Shown here piece by piece: positions 5,463-25,731 of a DNA stretch of 64,000 bases (position 1 is its first letter; each line of letters opens with the position of its first letter). The notes under the pieces were generated by a model. The model made no database searches and was not told the origin of the DNA. It worked only from the letters and a program-made list of their open reading frames with translations. Source of the DNA: Devosia indica (lineage in GTDB: Bacteria > Pseudomonadota > Alphaproteobacteria > Rhizobiales > Devosiaceae); contig NZ_PYVZ01000003.1 of assembly GCF_003056405.1 (NCBI RefSeq), positions 248,001 through 312,000 on the forward strand, in the 5' to 3' direction. The position numbers and the translations under genes were made by a program.

Positions 5463-6214
5463 ACGGCAGGCTCGTCATTCTTGGGACCGGTCCGGGTAAT
5501 CCCGAACAGACCACGCCACAGGCGCGCGATGCTATCGCCGTCGGGGAGCAGTTTTTTGGCTATGGCCCCTATCTCGACCGGCTGAACCTGCGCCCCGACC
5601 AGCACCGCATGCCCTCAGACAACCGTGAAGAAATCGGCCGGGCTCGAGCGGCGCTCGAAGCAGCCTCAAAGGGGGCTTCGGTCTGTGTGGTGTCGGGCGG
5701 CGATCCGGGCGTCTTCGCCATGGCCGCAGCCATCTGCGAGGCCATCGAGACCGGCCCTGAAACCTGGCGCCGGCTTGAGATCACCGTGCTGCCAGGCGTC
5801 ACTGCCATGCTGGCCGTCGCAGCCCGCGCGGGGGCGCCGCTGGGCCATGATTTCTGTGCCATTTCGCTTTCGGACAATCTCAAGCCCTGGGAATTGATCG
5901 AGCGCCGCCTGCGCGCCGTGGCCGAAGCGGGCCTGGTCATCGCGCTCTATAACCCGATCTCCAAGGCACGGCCCTGGCAATTGGGCACCGCTTTCAAGAT
6001 TCTGCGCGAGTCCCTGCCGGTGACGACACCGGTGATCTTCGGCCGCGCCGTGGGGCGTCCGGACGAGCATTTCGTGGTCGTTCCGCTTGGAGAAGCCGAC
6101 CAACAAAGCGCGGACATGGCCACCTGTGTCATCATCGGCTCGGCGGAAACGCGGATCATCGAGCGGCCCGGCATGGACCCGCTGGTCTATTCGCCGCGCG
6201 GGGTGGGAATATGA
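5459..6214 (+). CDS. cobJ: Precorrin-3B C17-methyltransferase CobJ
   Basis: Methylates C17 of precorrin-3B and contracts the ring to give precorrin-4. The 251 residues have LGTGPGNPEQTTPQA at the N-terminus, VVSGGDPGVFAMAAA in the middle and the CobJ-typical YNPISKARPWQL. There is no C-terminal fusion domain. It overlaps cobI and cobL by four bases. In related alphaproteobacteria cobK often sits between cobJ and cobL; here it does not. Confidence 0.94.
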   Translation: MNGRLVILGTGPGNPEQTTPQARDAIAVGEQFFGYGPYLDRLNLRPDQHRMPSDNREEIGRARAALEAASKGASVCVVSGGDPGVFAMAAAICEAIETGPETWRRLEITVLPGVTAMLAVAARAGAPLGHDFCAISLSDNLKPWELIERRLRAVAEAGLVIALYNPISKARPWQLGTAFKILRESLPVTTPVIFGRAVGRPDEHFVVVPLGEADQQSADMATCVIIGSAETRIIERPGMDPLVYSPRGVGI

Positions 6215-16088: not shown

Positions 16089-16577
16089 CTAGATCGGCAA
16101 GACCCGCGAGAACTTCACTGCTCCAAGCGAAAAACTACTCTCGATATGTGCCACGCCATCGAGCTGGGTGAGCCTTTCGCGCAGAAAATGCTCATAGGAT
16201 TCGAGATCGGCGCAGACGACGCGGAGCAGGAAATCGAACTGCCCGGTCATCAGATAGCACTCCATCACCTCTGGCCAGCGACTGATCGCAGCGCCGAAGG
16301 CATCCAGGTTGCGCGCCCTTTGCTGCTCGAGCTTGATGGAAATGAAAACCGAGACCGGCAGGCCGACCGATTTCTGCTCGATATTGGCGCTATAGCCGGA
16401 AATGACACCGTCTCGCTCAAGCTGACGCAACCGGCGCAGGCAAGGCGAGGCGGACAGACCGACCTTGTCAGCCAGCGCCTGGACCGTCACGCGACCATCC
16501 TCCTGCAGCGCCCGGAGGAGCTTGCGATCAATAGGGTCGATTCCGGACTTGGTGGTTTCCGCCTCAGATTGCGCCAA
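16089..16577 (-). CDS. Lrp/AsnC-family regulator, MdeR-like
   Basis: The 162-residue Lrp protein has an HTH from IDPIDRKLLRALQEDGRVT to SASPCLRRLRQLE and a RAM domain after it. It is divergent from a homodimeric-type E1 gene 102 bases away. In Pseudomonas putida the mdeR regulator (Lrp family) accompanies mdeB, a 2-oxobutyrate dehydrogenase E1 homologous to AceE; the same pairing is seen here, so I infer amino-acid-derived 2-oxoacid sensing. Confidence 0.85.
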   Translation of the reverse strand: MAQSEAETTKSGIDPIDRKLLRALQEDGRVTVQALADKVGLSASPCLRRLRQLERDGVISGYSANIEQKSVGLPVSVFISIKLEQQRARNLDAFGAAISRWPEVMECYLMTGQFDFLLRVVCADLESYEHFLRERLTQLDGVAHIESSFSLGAVKFSRVLPI

Positions 16578-16663: not shown

Positions 16664-16679
16664 CGATTGGAGGAGCGGT

Positions 16680-19049
16680 ATGGCAGGCAAGAGCATCGAG
16701 CGCATTGAAGCGATTGAGGCACTGACCAAAAAGTCTCTCTGGCTGGCAAGCTGGATGGTGCATCACGCCAATCACATCCGGCCCAATCCCGATGGGGTCA
16801 AGGTTGGCGGCCACCAGGCCAGCTCCGCCTCGATGGCTGCCATGCTGGCCACGCTGTATTTCGGCGTGCTGAAGCCCGAGGACCGGCTTGCCGTCAAACC
16901 ACATGCGGCGCCGATCTTCCATGCCATCCAGTATCTGATGGGCCGGCAGAGCCAGCAAAAGCTGATAGATTTTCGCGCTTTTGGCGGCGCCCAATCCTAT
17001 CCCTCCCGCACCAAGGATACCGAAGACGTCGACTTTTCGACCGGCTCGGTTGGGCTGGGCGTGGCGATGACGGCCTTTGCGTCCATGGTGCAGGATTATG
17101 TGCGCGCCAAGGACTGGGCCGGCAAGGCGCGGCCCGAGGGGCGCATGATTGCGCTGGCCGGCGATGCCGAGCTCGACGAGGGCAATATCTATGAATGCCT
17201 GCTCGAAGGCTGGAAGCATGGCTTGCGCAATTGCTGGTGGATCATCGACTATAACCGCCAGAGCCTGGATGGCGTGGTCCGCGAAGGGTTGTACGACCGC
17301 ATCGAAGCGATCTTCAAGGCATTTGGCTGGAGGGTAGTCACCCTCAAATATGGCGCCCTGCAGCGCGCCGCCTTCGCCGAACCCGGTGGCGAGCGTCTCA
17401 AGGCCTGGATCGACGCCTGTCCCAACGACCTCTATTCGGCACTGATGTTCCGGGGCGGTGCGGCCTGGCGGGAACGCCTCACCGACGAGATCGGCGACCA
17501 GGGTGATGTTTCTGCCCTGCTCGAGCGCCGCAGCGATGAGGACCTGGCGGCGCTAATGGCCAATCTGGGCGGGCATTGCGTAGAGAGCCTGCTCGACCAG
17601 TTCGAGAACGCCGGCACGGACGAGCCGACCGTTTTCATCAATTACACGGTCAAGGGCTGGGGTACGCCGCTGGCCGGGCACAAGGACAATCATGCCGGAC
17701 AGATGACCTCGGCCCAGATCGAGCAATTGCGCGCTGCCCACAATATCCGAAACGGACATGAATGGGATGTGTTCGAAGGGCTCGATCACGCTGACGCCCT
17801 GGCCGAATTTGTGCGGACTGTCCCCTTCAACACAGCCAAGCCCAGGCGCCTGACCGCTCCGGCAGTGCCCACCAGCGGCCCGCAGTTCATCGGCACGGGC
17901 GCCACCTCAACCCAGGCCGCATTTGGACGCATTCTCGACGCCATCGCCAAGACAGACAGCGAAATGGCGCGACGGATCGTGTCGACTTCGCCGGACGTGA
18001 CGGTTTCGACAGGCCTGGGGAGCTGGGTCAACCGGCGCAATTTGTTCGCCCGCAAGGAGACGGCCGACCTGTTCCAGAAGGAGGCGATCCCATCGACCCA
18101 GAAGTGGCGGTTCACCCCTGACGGGCAGCATATGGAACTGGGCATTGCGGAGATGAACCTGTTCCTGATGCTCGGAGCAGCGGGGCTCAGCCATTCGCTG
18201 TTCGGCGAACGCCTGTTGCCCATTGGCACCCTCTACGATCCGTTCATCTCGCGGGGGTTGGATGCCCTCAACTATGCCTGCTACCAGGACGCACGTTTCC
18301 TGCTGGTGGGCACCCCATCGGGCGTATCCCTGGCCGGCGAAGGAGGCGCGCACCAATCCATCGCCTCGCCGCTGATTGGCATGTCGCAGGACGGACTGGC
18401 CAGCTTCGAACCGGCTTTTGCCGACGAGTTGTCGGTCATTATCGACTGGGCGTTTGACTATATGCAGCGCACGGGCGATGCCAGGCCCGACCTGGCAGAC
18501 TGGCCGCGCGATGTCACCGGCGGCTCGGTCTATCTGCGCCTCTCCACCCGCACGCTGGAGCAGGTGCCGCGCGAGATGGCGCCACCACTGGCCGATGACA
18601 TCATTCGTGGCGCCTATTGGCTGCAACCACCAACACCGCAATGCGAGGCGGTCATTGCCTATCAGGGGGTTCTGGCCAGCGAAGCCATTGCGGCGGCAGC
18701 CCGTATCGGTGGTGACCGGCGCAATGTCGCCGTGCTGGCCGTGACCTCTGCGGACAGGCTCAATGCCGGCTGACAGGCTGCCCAGCGCGCTGGGCTGCAT
18801 GGTGACTTCGAGACCACCAGCCATATTGAGGCCCTGCTGAAAGACGTTCCGCACCGCGCCGGGTTGGTGACGGCCATTGACGCTCACCCGGCGACACTGG
18901 GCTGGCTCGGCAGCGTGCTGGGCCATCGCACCATGGCGCTCGGCGTCGAGCATTTTGGCCAGACCGGCACGGTTTCGGACCTCTACCGCCATTTCGGCAT
19001 CGGCGCCGAGACGATCGAAGCCGCCTGCCGGCAGGTTTTCGGGCGCTAA
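16680..19049 (+). pseudogene. Homodimeric 2-oxoacid dehydrogenase E1 / transketolase-like protein (AceE/MdeB type) with internal TGA
   Basis: Thiamine-diphosphate enzyme of the AceE family, about 789 codons. The cofactor motif starts GDAELDEGNIYE near residue 161 and ends DYNRQ near residue 190; the pyrimidine-binding part contains DGQHMELGIAEMNLF. Translation from the ATG at 16680 (GGAGGAG upstream) stops at a TGA at 18771-18773, after 697 residues. The same frame then continues without a shift for 92 codons with clear family sequence (VTAIDAHPATLGWLGS, LGVEHFGQTGTVSDLYRHFGI) to 19049. At the TGA, homologues have tryptophan (RLNAGW), so TGG to TGA fits. It may be a true nonsense mutation that removes the C-terminal transketolase domain, or a sequencing error. 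2-oxobutyrate dehydrogenase is the likeliest ancestral role. Confidence 0.82.
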
Positions 19050-19122
19050 GCAGACGCCCGACACAATCCGAACGTTGAACGGGAAAAGGAGAACTGCCGG
19101 ACTTGCCAAGTCCAGAATGATT

Positions 19123-19137
19123 TGTCAGACATATGTC
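19123..19137. promoter_or_regulatory. Palindrome cluster before the peptide importer
   Basis: TGTCAGACA overlaps a second perfect palindrome, GACATATGTC (19128-19137). The 12-mer TGTCAGACATAT is identical to the one before the E1 gene. The FadR-type GntR regulator encoded at the end of this operon is a candidate ligand. The rest of the 216-base gap from 19050 shows no gene. Confidence 0.4.
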
Positions 19138-19265
19138 ATATGGCAGATTTGGGAACGATCTGCCGGACCGCGGCACCAGCCGCGCCAAAGCTAAGTGACC
19201 AGACCCGAGGGGAAGGGCCTGGCGCATCAGGGAACGCCTACTGCTCTGCAACAAGGAGGGAGCTC

Positions 19266-20867
19266 ATGCATATCACACGGAAACTTGTCGCTGCGCTGGC
19301 CGTCGCCACCGCATTGACACTGCCAGCGATGGCGCAGTCGACCATTTCGGCGCCCGGCCAGTCCACCTCTGGCACCTATATGGACTATATGAAGACGGTC
19401 TATGACCGCGCGACCTTTGCCGAATTGCTGCAGGTGCCGATCGCGACCTTCGACAAGGAATTCGAACTCACTCCGATGGCGGCGGAAAGCTGGAGCCAGT
19501 CGGAAGATGGTCTCACCTGGACGTTCAAGCTGCGCGAAGGCCTGGTCTGGTCCGATGGCGAACCGCTCACGGCCGAAGACTATGTCTTTGCCCTGCAGCG
19601 CGCCGCGACAACCGGCTATGACTTTGCCTGGTATTGGGACTTTGCCGGCGGCATCAAGGGCTGGAAGGAAGTCACCGAAGGCACCGCCGACGTGTCCACC
19701 CTTGGTCTGGTCGCTGTCGATGACCTGACCATTGAAGTCACGACCGTAGCGCCCAAGCCGTATCTACCCTCGGTGACCAGCCTCTGGTACCCCGTTCCCA
19801 AGCACAAGGTGGATGAGCTGGGCGACGACTGGGCGCTCAATGTCGACACCATCGTGTCCTCCGGTCCGTTCGAAATCGAGAGCTGGGAGAAGTCGAACAA
19901 TGCGGTCGTCTTCACCAAGTCCGATACCTATACCGGTCCCTGGCAGGCGCAGATCGACCGCCTCGAAGTCGACCCGACGCTGGGCGCGCCCGAGGTCGGG
20001 CTGCCGGCCTTCCTGGCCGGTGACGCGGACTATTCCTTCCTCAACACGGGGCAGGTTCCGGTGGCCATGTCGGCGGACCCCGATGGCATCCGCCGCAACG
20101 CGGTGTTTGCTACCTCCTACCTCTCCTATGATCTGGAATCCGAGCCGTTCAATAATGTCGATGTGCGCCGTGCCTTCTACTATGCCATCGACCGCGAAGA
20201 GCTGACCTCAACGGTTCTGCGGGACATTGCCATTCCGGCGGGCTCGATCCTGCCGCCCGGCTATCCTGGCTACAATCCCGATGTCGTGGCCCAGGCCACC
20301 TTCGACCCCGAAAAAGCCCAGCAGTTCCTTGCCGATGCAGGCTATCCGAACGGCGAAGGCTTCCCGGAGATCGAAATCTGGATCCGCGAGGAAGGCGGCT
20401 ACAACGGCGCCATTGTGCCGGCCATGGCGCAATATCTTCAGGCCGAGCTCGGCGAGCATCTGGGGATCACCGTCAATATCCGCCAGCTTCCCGGCGCGGA
20501 CTGGATGGATGGCCTGCGCGGCGCGACGAACAACATCTTCATTGCGCCGTATGAGTACGACTATCTCGATCCGTCAAACTTCTACGGCATCTTCTACAAT
20601 GGCGGGCGCCACAACTATTTCGTGCCCGAATATGATGCCCTTGTCGCCGAAGCGGATTCGGAAAGCGATTGGGATACCCGCTACGCGCTCTATGCCCAGG
20701 CTGAACAGGTGATGATCGATCAGGGGCTGATCGTTCCACTGGTGCATCCGATCACTACAGCCATCATCTCCAGCGAGCTGGGCGGAGAGGCTACCGAGCC
20801 CAATTCGCTGGGCTTCACCCCACTGGATCGCCTTGGCCACTACTTCTTCACCCACCTGACGAAGTAA
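19266..20867 (+). CDS. Peptide/opine-type ABC substrate-binding protein
   Basis: The 533-residue periplasmic protein of the DppA/OppA family (cluster C) starts with a Sec signal MHITRKLVAALAVATALTLP cut after PAMAQS. Family stretches include WTFKLREGLVWSDGEPLTAEDYVFALQR and VRRAFYYAIDREEL. The frame is open upstream, but the ATG at 19266 has AGGAGGG just before it and begins the signal peptide. It leads an operon with ATPase, two permeases and a PLP enzyme; cargo unknown. Confidence 0.9.
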   Translation: MHITRKLVAALAVATALTLPAMAQSTISAPGQSTSGTYMDYMKTVYDRATFAELLQVPIATFDKEFELTPMAAESWSQSEDGLTWTFKLREGLVWSDGEPLTAEDYVFALQRAATTGYDFAWYWDFAGGIKGWKEVTEGTADVSTLGLVAVDDLTIEVTTVAPKPYLPSVTSLWYPVPKHKVDELGDDWALNVDTIVSSGPFEIESWEKSNNAVVFTKSDTYTGPWQAQIDRLEVDPTLGAPEVGLPAFLAGDADYSFLNTGQVPVAMSADPDGIRRNAVFATSYLSYDLESEPFNNVDVRRAFYYAIDREELTSTVLRDIAIPAGSILPPGYPGYNPDVVAQATFDPEKAQQFLADAGYPNGEGFPEIEIWIREEGGYNGAIVPAMAQYLQAELGEHLGITVNIRQLPGADWMDGLRGATNNIFIAPYEYDYLDPSNFYGIFYNGGRHNYFVPEYDALVAEADSESDWDTRYALYAQAEQVMIDQGLIVPLVHPITTAIISSELGGEATEPNSLGFTPLDRLGHYFFTHLTK

Positions 20868-20882
20868 CCCAGCGTTCCAACA

Positions 20883-20916
20883 GGCGCCTCCCGGGCATTC
20901 CCAGTCGGGAGGCGCC
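20883..20916 (+). terminator. Hairpin after the binding-protein gene
   Basis: GGCGCCTCCCG and CGGGAGGCGCC form a perfect 11-bp stem around a 12-base loop, without a following T-run. Located 15 bases after the binding-protein stop. Such hairpins usually protect the upstream mRNA or partly terminate, so that the binding protein is made in excess over the transporter. Confidence 0.6.
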
Positions 20917-20937
20917 ATCAGTTTCGGGGACCAGCAC

Positions 20938-22692
20938 ATGGCTTTGGTAGAAATCGCGGATCTCAAGGTCAGCTTTCGCCAATATGGCGGAACCATCGAC
21001 GCGGTACGCGGCATCAGCTTTTCGGTTAATGAAGGGGAGAGCCTCGGCATTGTGGGGGAGAGCGGATCGGGCAAGTCGGTGAGCTGCAGTGCCCTGCTCC
21101 GACTGTTGCCGGCAACGGCTGAAGTCAGCGCCACAAAGCTCGAACTTGATGGCATTGATGTGCGCAAGGCGCGCAAGGAGGATCTCGCCCGGCTGCGCGG
21201 CCGCTCTGCTGCCATGATCTTTCAGGACCCGATGACGGCGTTCGATCCGGTCTTTACCATCGGGCACCAGATCGCCGAGACCATCCAGTCCCATCGCAAT
21301 GTGTCCAGACGCGATGCGCTCAAGGAAGCCGAAGACCTGCTGCTGCGCGTCGAGATCAAGAACGCCAGCGACGTTCTCAACTATTTTCCGCACCAGCTCT
21401 CCGGGGGCATGCTGCAGCGCGCTATGATCGCCATGGCCCTCTCCTGCCGGCCCAAAGTGCTGATTGCCGACGAGCCGACCACTGCGCTCGACGTCACCAT
21501 CCAGGCGCAGATCCTGCAACTCATCAAGAAGGTGCAGGCCGAATTCGGCATGGCGCTGATCATGATTACCCATGACCTGGGCGTGATTGCCGAAACGGTC
21601 GACCGCGTGCTGGTGATGTATCGCGGCGAGGTCATGGAACAAGGGCCGGTGCAGCAGATCTTCGATGCGCCGCAGCACGCCTATACCAAGGAGCTCCTGG
21701 CGAGCCTACATGCCAGTTTCGAGCCCTCGCGCGGCAGCGACAACAAAACCCCGGCGCTTGAGCTCAAGGGCCTGGCCAAGGCCTACCGTATCCGCCGCCG
21801 GCGCGGGCTGTTCACCGACTATTCCGACTTCCACGCCGTGCGCGAGGTCAATATCGCCCTACCCAAGAACCGCATTGTCGCCATTGTGGGTGAGAGTGGC
21901 TCGGGCAAGACCACGACCGGCATGATGGCCATGCGGCTGACCGATGTGAGCCGCGGCCAGATCCTGGTGGATGGGCAGGACATTTCCGCCCTATCGCCTG
22001 AGGCCCTGAAGCCCTGGCGCAAGAAGATGCAGGTCGTTTTCCAGGACAGCTATTCGGCGCTTGATCCAATGATGACGCTGACCCAGACCATTGCCGAGCC
22101 ACTGCATATTCATGGCATTGGCAGTGCCAGGGAGCAGGAAGAGACGGCGCTGGACTGGCTGGAACGCGTCGGCCTCGACCGCACTTACGCCAATCGCTAC
22201 CCGCACGAGCTTTCGGGTGGCCAGCGGCAGCGCGTCGCGATTGCCCGGGCGCTGGTGCTCGAGCCCGATGTGCTGGTTGCTGACGAGCCGACCTCGGCGC
22301 TCGACGTCACCGTCAAGGCGCAGATCATCGGGCTCTTGAAGAAGTTGCAAGCGGAGATGGGCCTCTCGATCCTGTTCATCAGCCATGACCTGTCGACGGT
22401 GAAGTCCCTGACCGACAGTGTCGTGGTGATGTATCGCGGCCGTGTGGTCGAGGAAGCACCGACCGAACGCATCTTCTCGGACCCGCAGCACCCCTATACC
22501 CGCGCGCTGCTTGATGCGGTTCCGGCAACCAATCCCAAGAACAAGCGCGAGCGCACATTCCTGACTGCCGAGCAGATCGCCGCCCAGACACCACGCCTGA
22601 CCACGCTGCAGGCGGGCATTGCCCCGCACAGCGACCCGCAACTTGTTGCCATCGCCCCAGACCACCGGGTCGAGGCCTATGTGACCAATTGA
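20938..22692 (+). CDS. Fused dual ATP-binding protein of a peptide-type ABC transporter
   Basis: A 584-residue fusion of two ATPase domains (DppD-DppF or GsiA type). Domain 1 has Walker A GESGSGKS near residue 41, signature LSGGMLQR and Walker [13 protein letters not shown]. Domain 2, from about residue 276, has [17 protein letters not shown] and [12 protein letters not shown]. Each is followed by the oligopeptide C-terminal segment ([20 protein letters not shown]). It energises the adjacent permeases. Confidence 0.92.
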
Positions 22693-22705
22693 GGGAGAGG
22701 GTCTG

Positions 22706-23635
22706 ATGCTCGGCTATATCCTGCGCCGCCTCGTTTCGGTTGCCTTCACCTTCATCGCAGTGTCGCTGATTATCTTCCTGATGATGCATGCCGTGCCCGG
22801 CGGCCCCTTCGACGCCAATGACATGCCGGTTTCCGAAGCCGTGCGCGCCAAGCTGATGGCCCAGCTCGGGCTCGATCAGCCGCTATACGTCCAGTACCTC
22901 AAATATATGTGGGGCGTGCTGCATTTTGATTTCGGCGTGCCTTATCAAAGCCCCGGCGAGAGCGTGCTGCAGCTCCTCTCCCGCGCCTGGGTGCCGAGCC
23001 TTGTGCTGGGTGGGCTCGGCGTGCTCATCGGTGCCCCACTTGGTATCCTGCTGGGCATGGCGGCCGCGCTCAACCGCAATAGCTGGATCGACTATCTGGC
23101 CTCGGCGGTCGCCACGATCGGCCTCACCATTCCAGTGTTCGTCACCTCGATGCTGCTGATCCTTGTGTTCGCGGTCTGGCTCAAATGGCTGCCCGCCAGC
23201 GGCTGGCCCAATCCGGAGCGGTGGATCCTGCCGATCATCGCCTATGCGGCGATCCCCGTTGCCACCTATGCCCGCTACACGCGCTCGGCCATGCTCGACA
23301 CCATGAGCCGGCCCTTCGTTACCGTGCTGCGCGCCAAGGGGCTTAGCGAGCGCCGTATCGTCTTCCAGCATGTGCTGCGCAATTCGGCCATTCCGCTGGT
23401 CACCGTGTTCCTCCCCATGTTCATCGGCACCGCCACCGGCTCGATCTTTGTCGAGGCCATGTTCCGCGTGCCGGGCCTGGGCGCTTACTTCGTCTCCTCC
23501 ATCGAGACGCGCGACTATCCGCTGGAAATGGCGCTGATGCTGATGATCACCTTCATGTACTGCATCGCCTATCTTCTCTCAGACATCGTCTATGCGCTGA
23601 TCAATCCGCGTATCCGCGTGGGAGGCGCAGAATGA
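22706..23635 (+). CDS. Peptide-type ABC permease (DppB-like)
   Basis: The 309-residue inner-membrane protein begins MLGYILRRLVSVAFTFIAVS, the usual DppB-type first helix. It has several more hydrophobic segments and the cytoplasmic coupling loop FVTVLRAKGLSERRIVFQHVLRN. A GGGAGAGGG lies before the ATG, and the gene overlaps the next permease by four bases. Confidence 0.92.
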   Translation: MLGYILRRLVSVAFTFIAVSLIIFLMMHAVPGGPFDANDMPVSEAVRAKLMAQLGLDQPLYVQYLKYMWGVLHFDFGVPYQSPGESVLQLLSRAWVPSLVLGGLGVLIGAPLGILLGMAAALNRNSWIDYLASAVATIGLTIPVFVTSMLLILVFAVWLKWLPASGWPNPERWILPIIAYAAIPVATYARYTRSAMLDTMSRPFVTVLRAKGLSERRIVFQHVLRNSAIPLVTVFLPMFIGTATGSIFVEAMFRVPGLGAYFVSSIETRDYPLEMALMLMITFMYCIAYLLSDIVYALINPRIRVGGAE

Positions 23636-24528
23636 CCGACACCATCGTTCCGCCCGCCGTCGAAGCCGCCCCGCCCCGCCAGCGCAGCCCACTGTGGTTC
23701 GCCTGGCAGCGCTTCCTGTCCAACAAGGCGGCCGTCGCCGGCGGCATCGTGATGAGCATCCTGATCCTGATGGCAATCTTTGCGCCGCTGATCACCCCGG
23801 TGCCGCCCGAGGCGCAATTGTTCCTCACCCAATCGCTGGCCTTCCCTTCGGCCGAGCATTGGTTCGGCGTGGATAATCTGGGCCGCGACTTCTATACGCG
23901 CATCGTTTATGGGGCCCGCGTCTCGCTCTCCATCGGCTTCATTGCTGCTGGCTTCTCGGTGCTGATCGGTATTCCACTGGGGGCCCTGGCCGGATATTTC
24001 GGCGGCCGGACCGACTGGATCATCATGCGCATCATCGAGTTGTTCTCGGTGGTGCCGCCGCTCCTGGCGGCCATGCTGCTGGGCACGCTTATTCGCGGTG
24101 GCTACATGTCGATTGTCGCGATTGCGGCGCTGTTCGGCTGGGTGCAGGTGTGCCTGCTGGTCCGCGCCCAGGTGAAGGCCTTCCGGGAAAAGGAATTCGT
24201 TCGGGCAGCACAGGCCTTGGGTGCCTCGCCCTGGTACATCATCCGCCGCCATCTCATTCCCAATTCGATCAGCCCGATCATTGTCGGTTTCGTGCTGGCC
24301 ATCCCGCTGGCCATGATGCTCGAAGCCTCGCTCAGCTTCCTCGGCATCGGCGTGCCTCCGCCCACCGCCACCTGGGGTCAGATGATCAATGAGGGCATCA
24401 ATTTCATGTTCTACTACTGGCACCTGGCCGTGTTCCCCACGGCAGCGCTGGCCATCACCGTGCTTGCCACCTCGCTGTTTGGCGATGGATTGCGCGATGC
24501 CCTCGATCCCACCCTGAAAGGCCGCTGA
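23632..24528 (+). CDS. Peptide-type ABC permease (DppC-like)
   Basis: The 298-residue permease has the N-terminal DppC pattern (WQRFLSNKAAVAGGIVM), the LFGVDNLGRDF-like stretch HWFGVDNLGRDFYTRIVYGAR and the coupling loop FVRAAQALGASPWYIIRRHLIP. It pairs with the preceding DppB-like permease. Confidence 0.92.
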   Translation: MTDTIVPPAVEAAPPRQRSPLWFAWQRFLSNKAAVAGGIVMSILILMAIFAPLITPVPPEAQLFLTQSLAFPSAEHWFGVDNLGRDFYTRIVYGARVSLSIGFIAAGFSVLIGIPLGALAGYFGGRTDWIIMRIIELFSVVPPLLAAMLLGTLIRGGYMSIVAIAALFGWVQVCLLVRAQVKAFREKEFVRAAQALGASPWYIIRRHLIPNSISPIIVGFVLAIPLAMMLEASLSFLGIGVPPPTATWGQMINEGINFMFYYWHLAVFPTAALAITVLATSLFGDGLRDALDPTLKGR

Positions 24529-24531
24529 ACC

Positions 24532-25731
24532 GTGTCCGACAATCTCGCCCGGCACTTCCTCCTCCGTGAGGATGTCACCTTCCTCAATCACGGTTCTTTC
24601 GGCGCCTGCCCGCGCCCGGTCTTCGAGACCTATCAGGGCTGGCAACTCGAACTGGAGCAGGAGCCGGTAGAGTTCCTGGGCCGTCGCCTGCACGATCTGC
24701 TGCGCGTGCCCCGTGAGGCCCTGGCGGCCGAGCTGGGATGCGATGCCGATGACATTGTCGGCGTGCCCAATGCCACCAATGGCCTGAACATCGTCGCCCA
24801 GTCGCTTGATCTCAAACCCGGCGACCAGATCCTCACCACCGACCATGAATACTCGGCGCTGGAAAAGACCTGGGCCTATGTCTGCCGCAAGACCGGCGCC
24901 GAGATCGTCGTGGTCAAGGTCCCCATGCCTTTGGTCAGCGAGACTGCGTTCACCCAGACCATCATTGATGGCATGACCGAACGGACGAAGGTGCTGTTTC
25001 TCAGCCACATCACATCGCCCACAGCCCTCTTGTTCCCGATCGAGAACGCTATTGTCGAGGCGCGCAGGCGTGGCATCTGGTCGGTGATTGATGGCGCCCA
25101 TACACCGGGCCATATCAAGCTCAACCTCGATGCGATCGGGGCTGACTTCTATGCGGGCAATTGCCACAAATGGATGATGACCCCCAAGGGATCGGCCTTC
25201 CTCCATACGCGCCGCGAGATGCAGGGCCTGCTCAACCCGCTGGTCATCAGCCATGGCTGGACCAAGGATTCCAAGGCGCCAGGGGCCAAGGGCGCCTTCG
25301 GCAATTCTCCCTATATCGACGAAATTGAAATAAGGGGCACGCGCGACCCCGCGCCCTGGCTGACCGTTCCGGCCGCCATAGCCTTCCGCAAGGAGAATGA
25401 CTGGTGGGCCATTGCCGAGCATTGCCATGCCCTGGCGCAGGACACGGCACGACGGCTCGGCGAATTGACTGGTCTTGCGCCTCTGGGCAGTGCGGCGTTC
25501 TGCGCCCCACAAATGGTCGCCATGCCCATTCCGGAATGCGACACGCTCGCGGTTCACACGACGCTGTTCGAAAAGTACGGGATCGAGATCCCTGTCTTCA
25601 AATGGCAGGACACCTGCATCGTGCGCCTGTCGGTGCAGGGCTATAATTCGCGCCCGCAAATGGACCGGCTGATCGAGGCACTCACCGAATTGCTTGATCT
25701 CAAGCAGGCGCCCTTGGCAGCGCAAGGCTGA
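24532..25731 (+). CDS. Class V aminotransferase-fold PLP enzyme (isopenicillin N epimerase-like)
   Basis: The 399-residue pyridoxal-phosphate protein contains FLNHGSFGACPRPV near the N-terminus, the aspartate of VIDGAHTPGH, and the Schiff-base lysine in NCHKWMMTPKG (about residue 213). This is the CefD/cysteine-desulfurase-like group; the reaction could be epimerisation, transamination or lyase chemistry on an amino acid or small peptide. It starts with GTG three bases after the permease stop, so it is co-transcribed with the importer and probably handles the imported substrate. Confidence 0.85.
   Translation: MSDNLARHFLLREDVTFLNHGSFGACPRPVFETYQGWQLELEQEPVEFLGRRLHDLLRVPREALAAELGCDADDIVGVPNATNGLNIVAQSLDLKPGDQILTTDHEYSALEKTWAYVCRKTGAEIVVVKVPMPLVSETAFTQTIIDGMTERTKVLFLSHITSPTALLFPIENAIVEARRRGIWSVIDGAHTPGHIKLNLDAIGADFYAGNCHKWMMTPKGSAFLHTRREMQGLLNPLVISHGWTKDSKAPGAKGAFGNSPYIDEIEIRGTRDPAPWLTVPAAIAFRKENDWWAIAEHCHALAQDTARRLGELTGLAPLGSAAFCAPQMVAMPIPECDTLAVHTTLFEKYGIEIPVFKWQDTCIVRLSVQGYNSRPQMDRLIEALTELLDLKQAPLAAQG

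Follow-up and report, generated by a model that had tools for sequence, protein, structure and literature searches.

A recent nonsense mutation probably interrupts an AceE-like E1 gene at an invariant tryptophan codon in Devosia indica

Within a window of 64,000 nucleotides of the Devosia indica genome (contig NZ_PYVZ01000003.1), the reading frame of a predicted thiamine-diphosphate enzyme is interrupted by a TGA at a position where related genes carry a tryptophan codon. Such a codon may mark the loss of the gene, a leaky or recoded stop, or a base-calling error, and the question is which of these readings the locus best fits. Comparisons of sequences make it probable that a nonsense mutation of recent date changed one base (TGG to TGA), by which an accessory AceE-like E1 gene would have been inactivated or nearly inactivated. 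The case looks like an ordinary nonsense mutation and not like a novel decoding rule. In-frame stops in bacterial genes have been surveyed (Belinky et al. 2021, PMC7918605), and the resulting pseudogenes and polymorphisms likewise show a single stop in a constrained gene with low dN/dS and are expected to be short-lived; in that survey, however, only stops common to two or more genomes were kept, whereas the present TGA occurs in a single genome.

The interrupted gene and the identity of its product

The open reading frame starts with ATG and ends at the TGA after 697 amino acids (16680..18773, + strand; Table 1). Beyond it the frame stays open for 91 sense codons (18774-19046) up to a TAA at 19047-19049. 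Counting the TGA as a residue gives a protein of 789 residues, which matches its relatives without interruption. Among the records, Devosia marina and D. subaequoris stand closest to the source genome. Residues 1-789 fell into a single tblastn alignment with the locus of the nearest relative, D. marina (L002; 95.4% identity), in which no other stop and no frameshift were found, and the identity to locus L027 is 94.7%. This one-piece alignment bears out the statement of the first-pass annotation that the frame is intact on either side of the TGA, without a shift. Its count of 697 residues before the stop was also correct, but the 92 codons that it placed after the stop are 91 sense codons, and 92 only when the terminal stop is counted.

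Table 1. Features of the E1 locus, in positions of the window
Feature	Position	Strand	Remark
Lrp/AsnC-type regulator gene	16089..16577	-	Divergent; frequent neighbour of the E1 gene
GGAGGAG, Shine-Dalgarno-like	16669..16675	+	Ahead of the ATG at 16680; putative, from its position
AceE-like (E1/transketolase-fold) thiamine-diphosphate enzyme gene, interrupted	16680..19049	+	789 codons plus final TAA
First 697 codons	16680..18770	+	Transketolase_N, PDH_E1_M and start of the C-terminal domain
In-frame TGA	18771..18773	+	TGG in 79/79 related loci aligned across the site
91 post-stop codons	18774..19046	+	Homologue of the relatives' C-terminus; residues 698-789 hold 23 invariant columns
Perfect 16-nt palindrome	18780..18795		Begins 6 nt after the TGA

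At residue 698, TGG is found in every one of the 79 loci that align across the site, out of 80 related loci in all. W698 is moreover an invariant column of alignment A1, composed of 33 of the 77 full-length sequences (that of the window and those of 76 of the 80 loci), which confirms the proposed change from TGG to TGA at a conserved tryptophan. The stop thus sits in a frame left open by the relatives. Since homology continues over the 91 codons past it, with a dN/dS of 0.12 against D. marina, the stop does not lie there by chance, and the family sequence that had been noticed in the tail is genuine.

Transketolase_N and PDH_E1_M were both detected over their Pfam cut-offs, as was Transketolase_C_1 at residues 644-774, the latter only with the TGA read as W; Transket_pyr scored 22.7, under its 27-bit cut-off. 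The combination of Transketolase_N, pyrimidine-binding and C-terminal domains with an AceE fold places the protein in the E1/transketolase superfamily. Its structure model (mean pLDDT 82, pTM 0.83) found its best Foldseek match in E. coli AceE (4qoy_A; TM 0.81 by query, E 1.4e-37, ~20% identity), transketolases ranking next, and phmmer aligned the protein with E. coli AceE over residues 33-593, all before the stop (E 6.8e-26). The E. coli enzyme (PDB 1l8a, 4qoy) has the same domain order and the same fold over its whole length, but it counts 886 residues against 789 here and is only distantly similar in sequence. The AceE equivalog model TIGR00759 (NCBIfam) matched along the length of the protein, with the TGA as W, at 177.9 bits, far under its curated cut-off of 859.9 bits, and identity with the AceE equivalog was accordingly ruled out. 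Judged on these scores the protein is AceE-like and not an AceE equivalog: the earlier label AceE/MdeB-like holds for fold and domain order, whereas the protein stays far below the AceE cut-off (178 vs 860 bits). Its predicted role is probably to decarboxylate a 2-oxo acid, with Lrp as the regulator. The genome also carries, at another place, a canonical PDH E1-alpha gene. A second copy of the E1 gene able to stand in for this one was not found, two other matches being weak (E about 3e-4).

Effect and age of the stop

Termination at the TGA removes 92 of the 789 residues, and 23 of the 271 invariant columns of the 33-sequence alignment fall at residues 698-789, W698 among them. From the stop onwards, 77 of the 131 Transketolase_C_1 residues are lost, so that most of the C-terminal transketolase domain is missing from the truncated product, as the first-pass annotation had proposed. 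In the structure model, the stop interrupts helix 691-706, which belongs to the C-terminal domain, and strands 728-733 and 751-754 as well as helix 738-745 come after it; the conserved stretches H-P-x-T-x-x-W-L-G and G-V-E-x-F-G-Q-T-G are also lost. The part removed is thus both conserved and, given a stop in mid-helix, structurally needed. With ribosomes stopping after residue 697, the product would lack one half of this helix, both strands and the two conserved stretches, and would probably misfold or be degraded; a truncated enzyme that is both stable and active is unlikely. Ordinary near-cognate reading of the UGA by tRNA-Trp could still yield full-length protein in trace amounts, with Trp back in its place.

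The gene is under strong constraint on both sides of the stop. Computed one pair at a time, dN/dS against D. marina amounts to 0.042 before the stop and 0.119 after it, and the corresponding values for the two sisters, D. marina and D. subaequoris, against each other are 0.032 and 0.089. Codons unique to the D. indica lineage comprise 114 synonymous and 16 non-synonymous changes before the stop and 8 and 1 after it, a ratio that resembles those of both sisters (Fisher p = 0.59). These lineage-unique codons also include changes that arose on the common stem of D. marina and D. subaequoris; the upper bound of about 4-5% computed for the part of the branch that evolved neutrally is therefore optimistic, and we would put it under about a tenth. 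Neither a second lesion nor an excess of non-synonymous changes was found on the lineage; tail residue 705 deviates from a nearly invariant column, and D. subaequoris deviates there too.

Strong constraint and the lack of decay suggest that the stop is very recent and that any neutral period was short and, with no further lesion and no relaxed constraint, the claim is one of a nonsense mutation and not of an old pseudogene. Loss of function and recency are both what we infer from these patterns. The absence of decay is expected for a very recent stop and equally for a sequencing error, and a constrained tail would likewise be seen if the gene were intact and the base miscalled, or if the stop were read through. 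If real, the mutation would capture an accessory enzyme gene at the onset of its loss, soon after the first hit and before decay. Its main bearing is on annotation, where the gene should be marked as disrupted or the record be verified with the reads.

Sequencing error, readthrough and recoding

The main rival to a recent inactivation is a sequencing or assembly error, the chromosome having TGG and the gene being intact. We consider it unlikely, while giving it more weight than any other alternative. It would account for a lone differing base in an otherwise normal, strongly constrained gene, and the assembly is a draft of 69 contigs (G000, 3.95 Mb); its completeness is nevertheless 99.98% and its contamination 0. 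An indirect check on the quality of the assembly came from 312 kb of this contig set beside D. marina alone (222 coding-like ORFs with an orthologue, ~85,000 codons), where 15 of the 222 ORFs had an in-frame stop in this genome. In 13 of the 14 others, each of at least 150 aa, the last stop fell within the first 91 codons and the stretch before it was short or mostly not codon-like, as expected of over-long ORF starts; the 14th, of 118 aa, is ambiguous. The reverse comparison flagged 11 of 231 own ORFs against D. marina. In the forward comparison only the E1 stop has long codon-like sequence on both sides and, since it stands alone there, the assembly is not error-prone in general, although a single base error at this position is possible. 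Among the options listed by the first-pass annotation, recent inactivation is favoured over sequencing error, and dedicated readthrough or recoding finds no support.

Functional readthrough, in which a leaky TGA would give two isoforms, the full-length one with Trp inserted and at a low, perhaps regulated, level, is much less probable than an error. In its favour, TGA is the leakiest stop in E. coli and is read there mostly as Trp (PMC11126739), and Trp is the ancestral residue at this site; decay is absent from the tail, and a perfect palindrome starts just past the TGA. The TGA is however present in no relative, so nothing shows its retention, and the RNA after the stop, palindrome included, does not fold better than shuffled sequences do (z +0.44 and -0.35). 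The decoding machinery also appears ordinary: the tRNA-Trp(CCA) gene is identical to those of five relatives, with an anticodon stem of 5 bp, and RF2 (513 bits, over its cut-off) has a complete frame and, compared by eye in a residue-by-residue view covering G019 and G063, differs from D. marina at 5 of 355 residues. The low-level reading of UGA as Trp known in E. coli (PMC11126739) may occur here too, as a property of any UGA and as trace leakage at most.

The palindrome is found in this genome and is absent from four relatives. Perfect 16-nt palindromes number 11 in the 312 kb, a perfect 6-bp stem occurred in the range tested after 2.2% of 20,000 random positions, and a search of Rfam for structured RNA at the site returned one chance-level match (17501-17558, E 0.79). 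Having been noticed after the fact, the palindrome constitutes weak evidence and is probably a coincidence. We regard as still more doubtful than functional readthrough in general the conjecture that the TGA and this lineage-specific palindrome, as a short mRNA hairpin, form a new leaky stop which sets the dose of full-length E1 via UGA-to-Trp readthrough.

A change of genetic code or a selenocysteine, making TGA a sense codon in this organism, is the least credible reading, as it has the single TGA in its favour and nothing beyond, and only one such TGA occurs in 222 genes. A TGA=Trp code is characterised (PMC13092985) by a tRNA-Trp with a UCA anticodon, or with CCA and either a 4-bp anticodon stem or a Hirsh-type change. 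No TCA, CTA or TTA anticodon was present among the 44 tRNA genes, each read by ARAGORN, which rules out a suppressor tRNA, and the identity of tRNA-Trp(CCA) in five relatives together with its five stem pairs argues against a Hirsh-type change or a 4-bp stem; the locus therefore does not fit such a code. A missing or altered RF2 was rejected on its score and complete frame, and a selenoprotein on the best scores for tRNA-Sec (46.7 vs a 47-bit cut-off, at a place that ARAGORN reads as tRNA-Ser(TGA)) and SelB (186 vs 242.25 bits). Within the completeness of the assembly, these results already refute a change of code or a selenocysteine. Nothing new about decoding follows from the E1 stop; a sizeable full-length product, if found, would bear on stop-codon readthrough in Alphaproteobacteria.

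Gene neighbourhood and losses among relatives

Where the DNA upstream of the E1 gene exceeds 700 bases (76 loci), a divergent Lrp/AsnC gene precedes it in 46; among the 26 closest loci (L002-L027), it does so in each of the 25 that have upstream DNA. In Pseudomonas putida, the gene of the Lrp-type regulator MdeR is divergent from mdeB, as is the regulator gene here from E1, a likeness in gene arrangement; literature searches for MdeB and mdeR gave nothing of use. A homologue of the solute-binding protein gene follows E1 in 19 of 70 loci. Downstream of E1 in the window (19122-25731, same strand) lie peptide-type ABC transporter genes (SBP_bac_5, fused ATPases and two permeases) and, after them, a class-V aminotransferase gene; these genes might supply the substrate of E1.

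A DNA match to the E1 gene was obtained in 40 of 75 same-genus genomes, some as short fragments only and about 36 substantial by our reading of the list. The gene is accessory, dispensable and lost now and then, with independent breaks in the homologues of G112, G072, G014, G029 and L059; those of G014 and G029, from the same family, are frame breaks. Locus L178 (G112:C2:280541-282886), which belongs to a different genus within the family, is open apart from a single in-frame TAG at residue 284. In a same-genus genome of ~2.0 Mb (G072), which looks like a reduced, pseudogene-rich genome, locus L181 on contig C78 is a decayed copy with five stops, two of them at conserved Trp, and with frame changes. 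Two of the 101 order-level matches obtained from 199 genomes have an internal stop, that of the window and that of G189. In Pannonibacter sp. SL95 (L059), the frame breaks at about 6055-6070, one codon before the stop position of the window: the match ends at residue 696, and the TGG and tail carry on in another frame, possibly through a sequencing indel.
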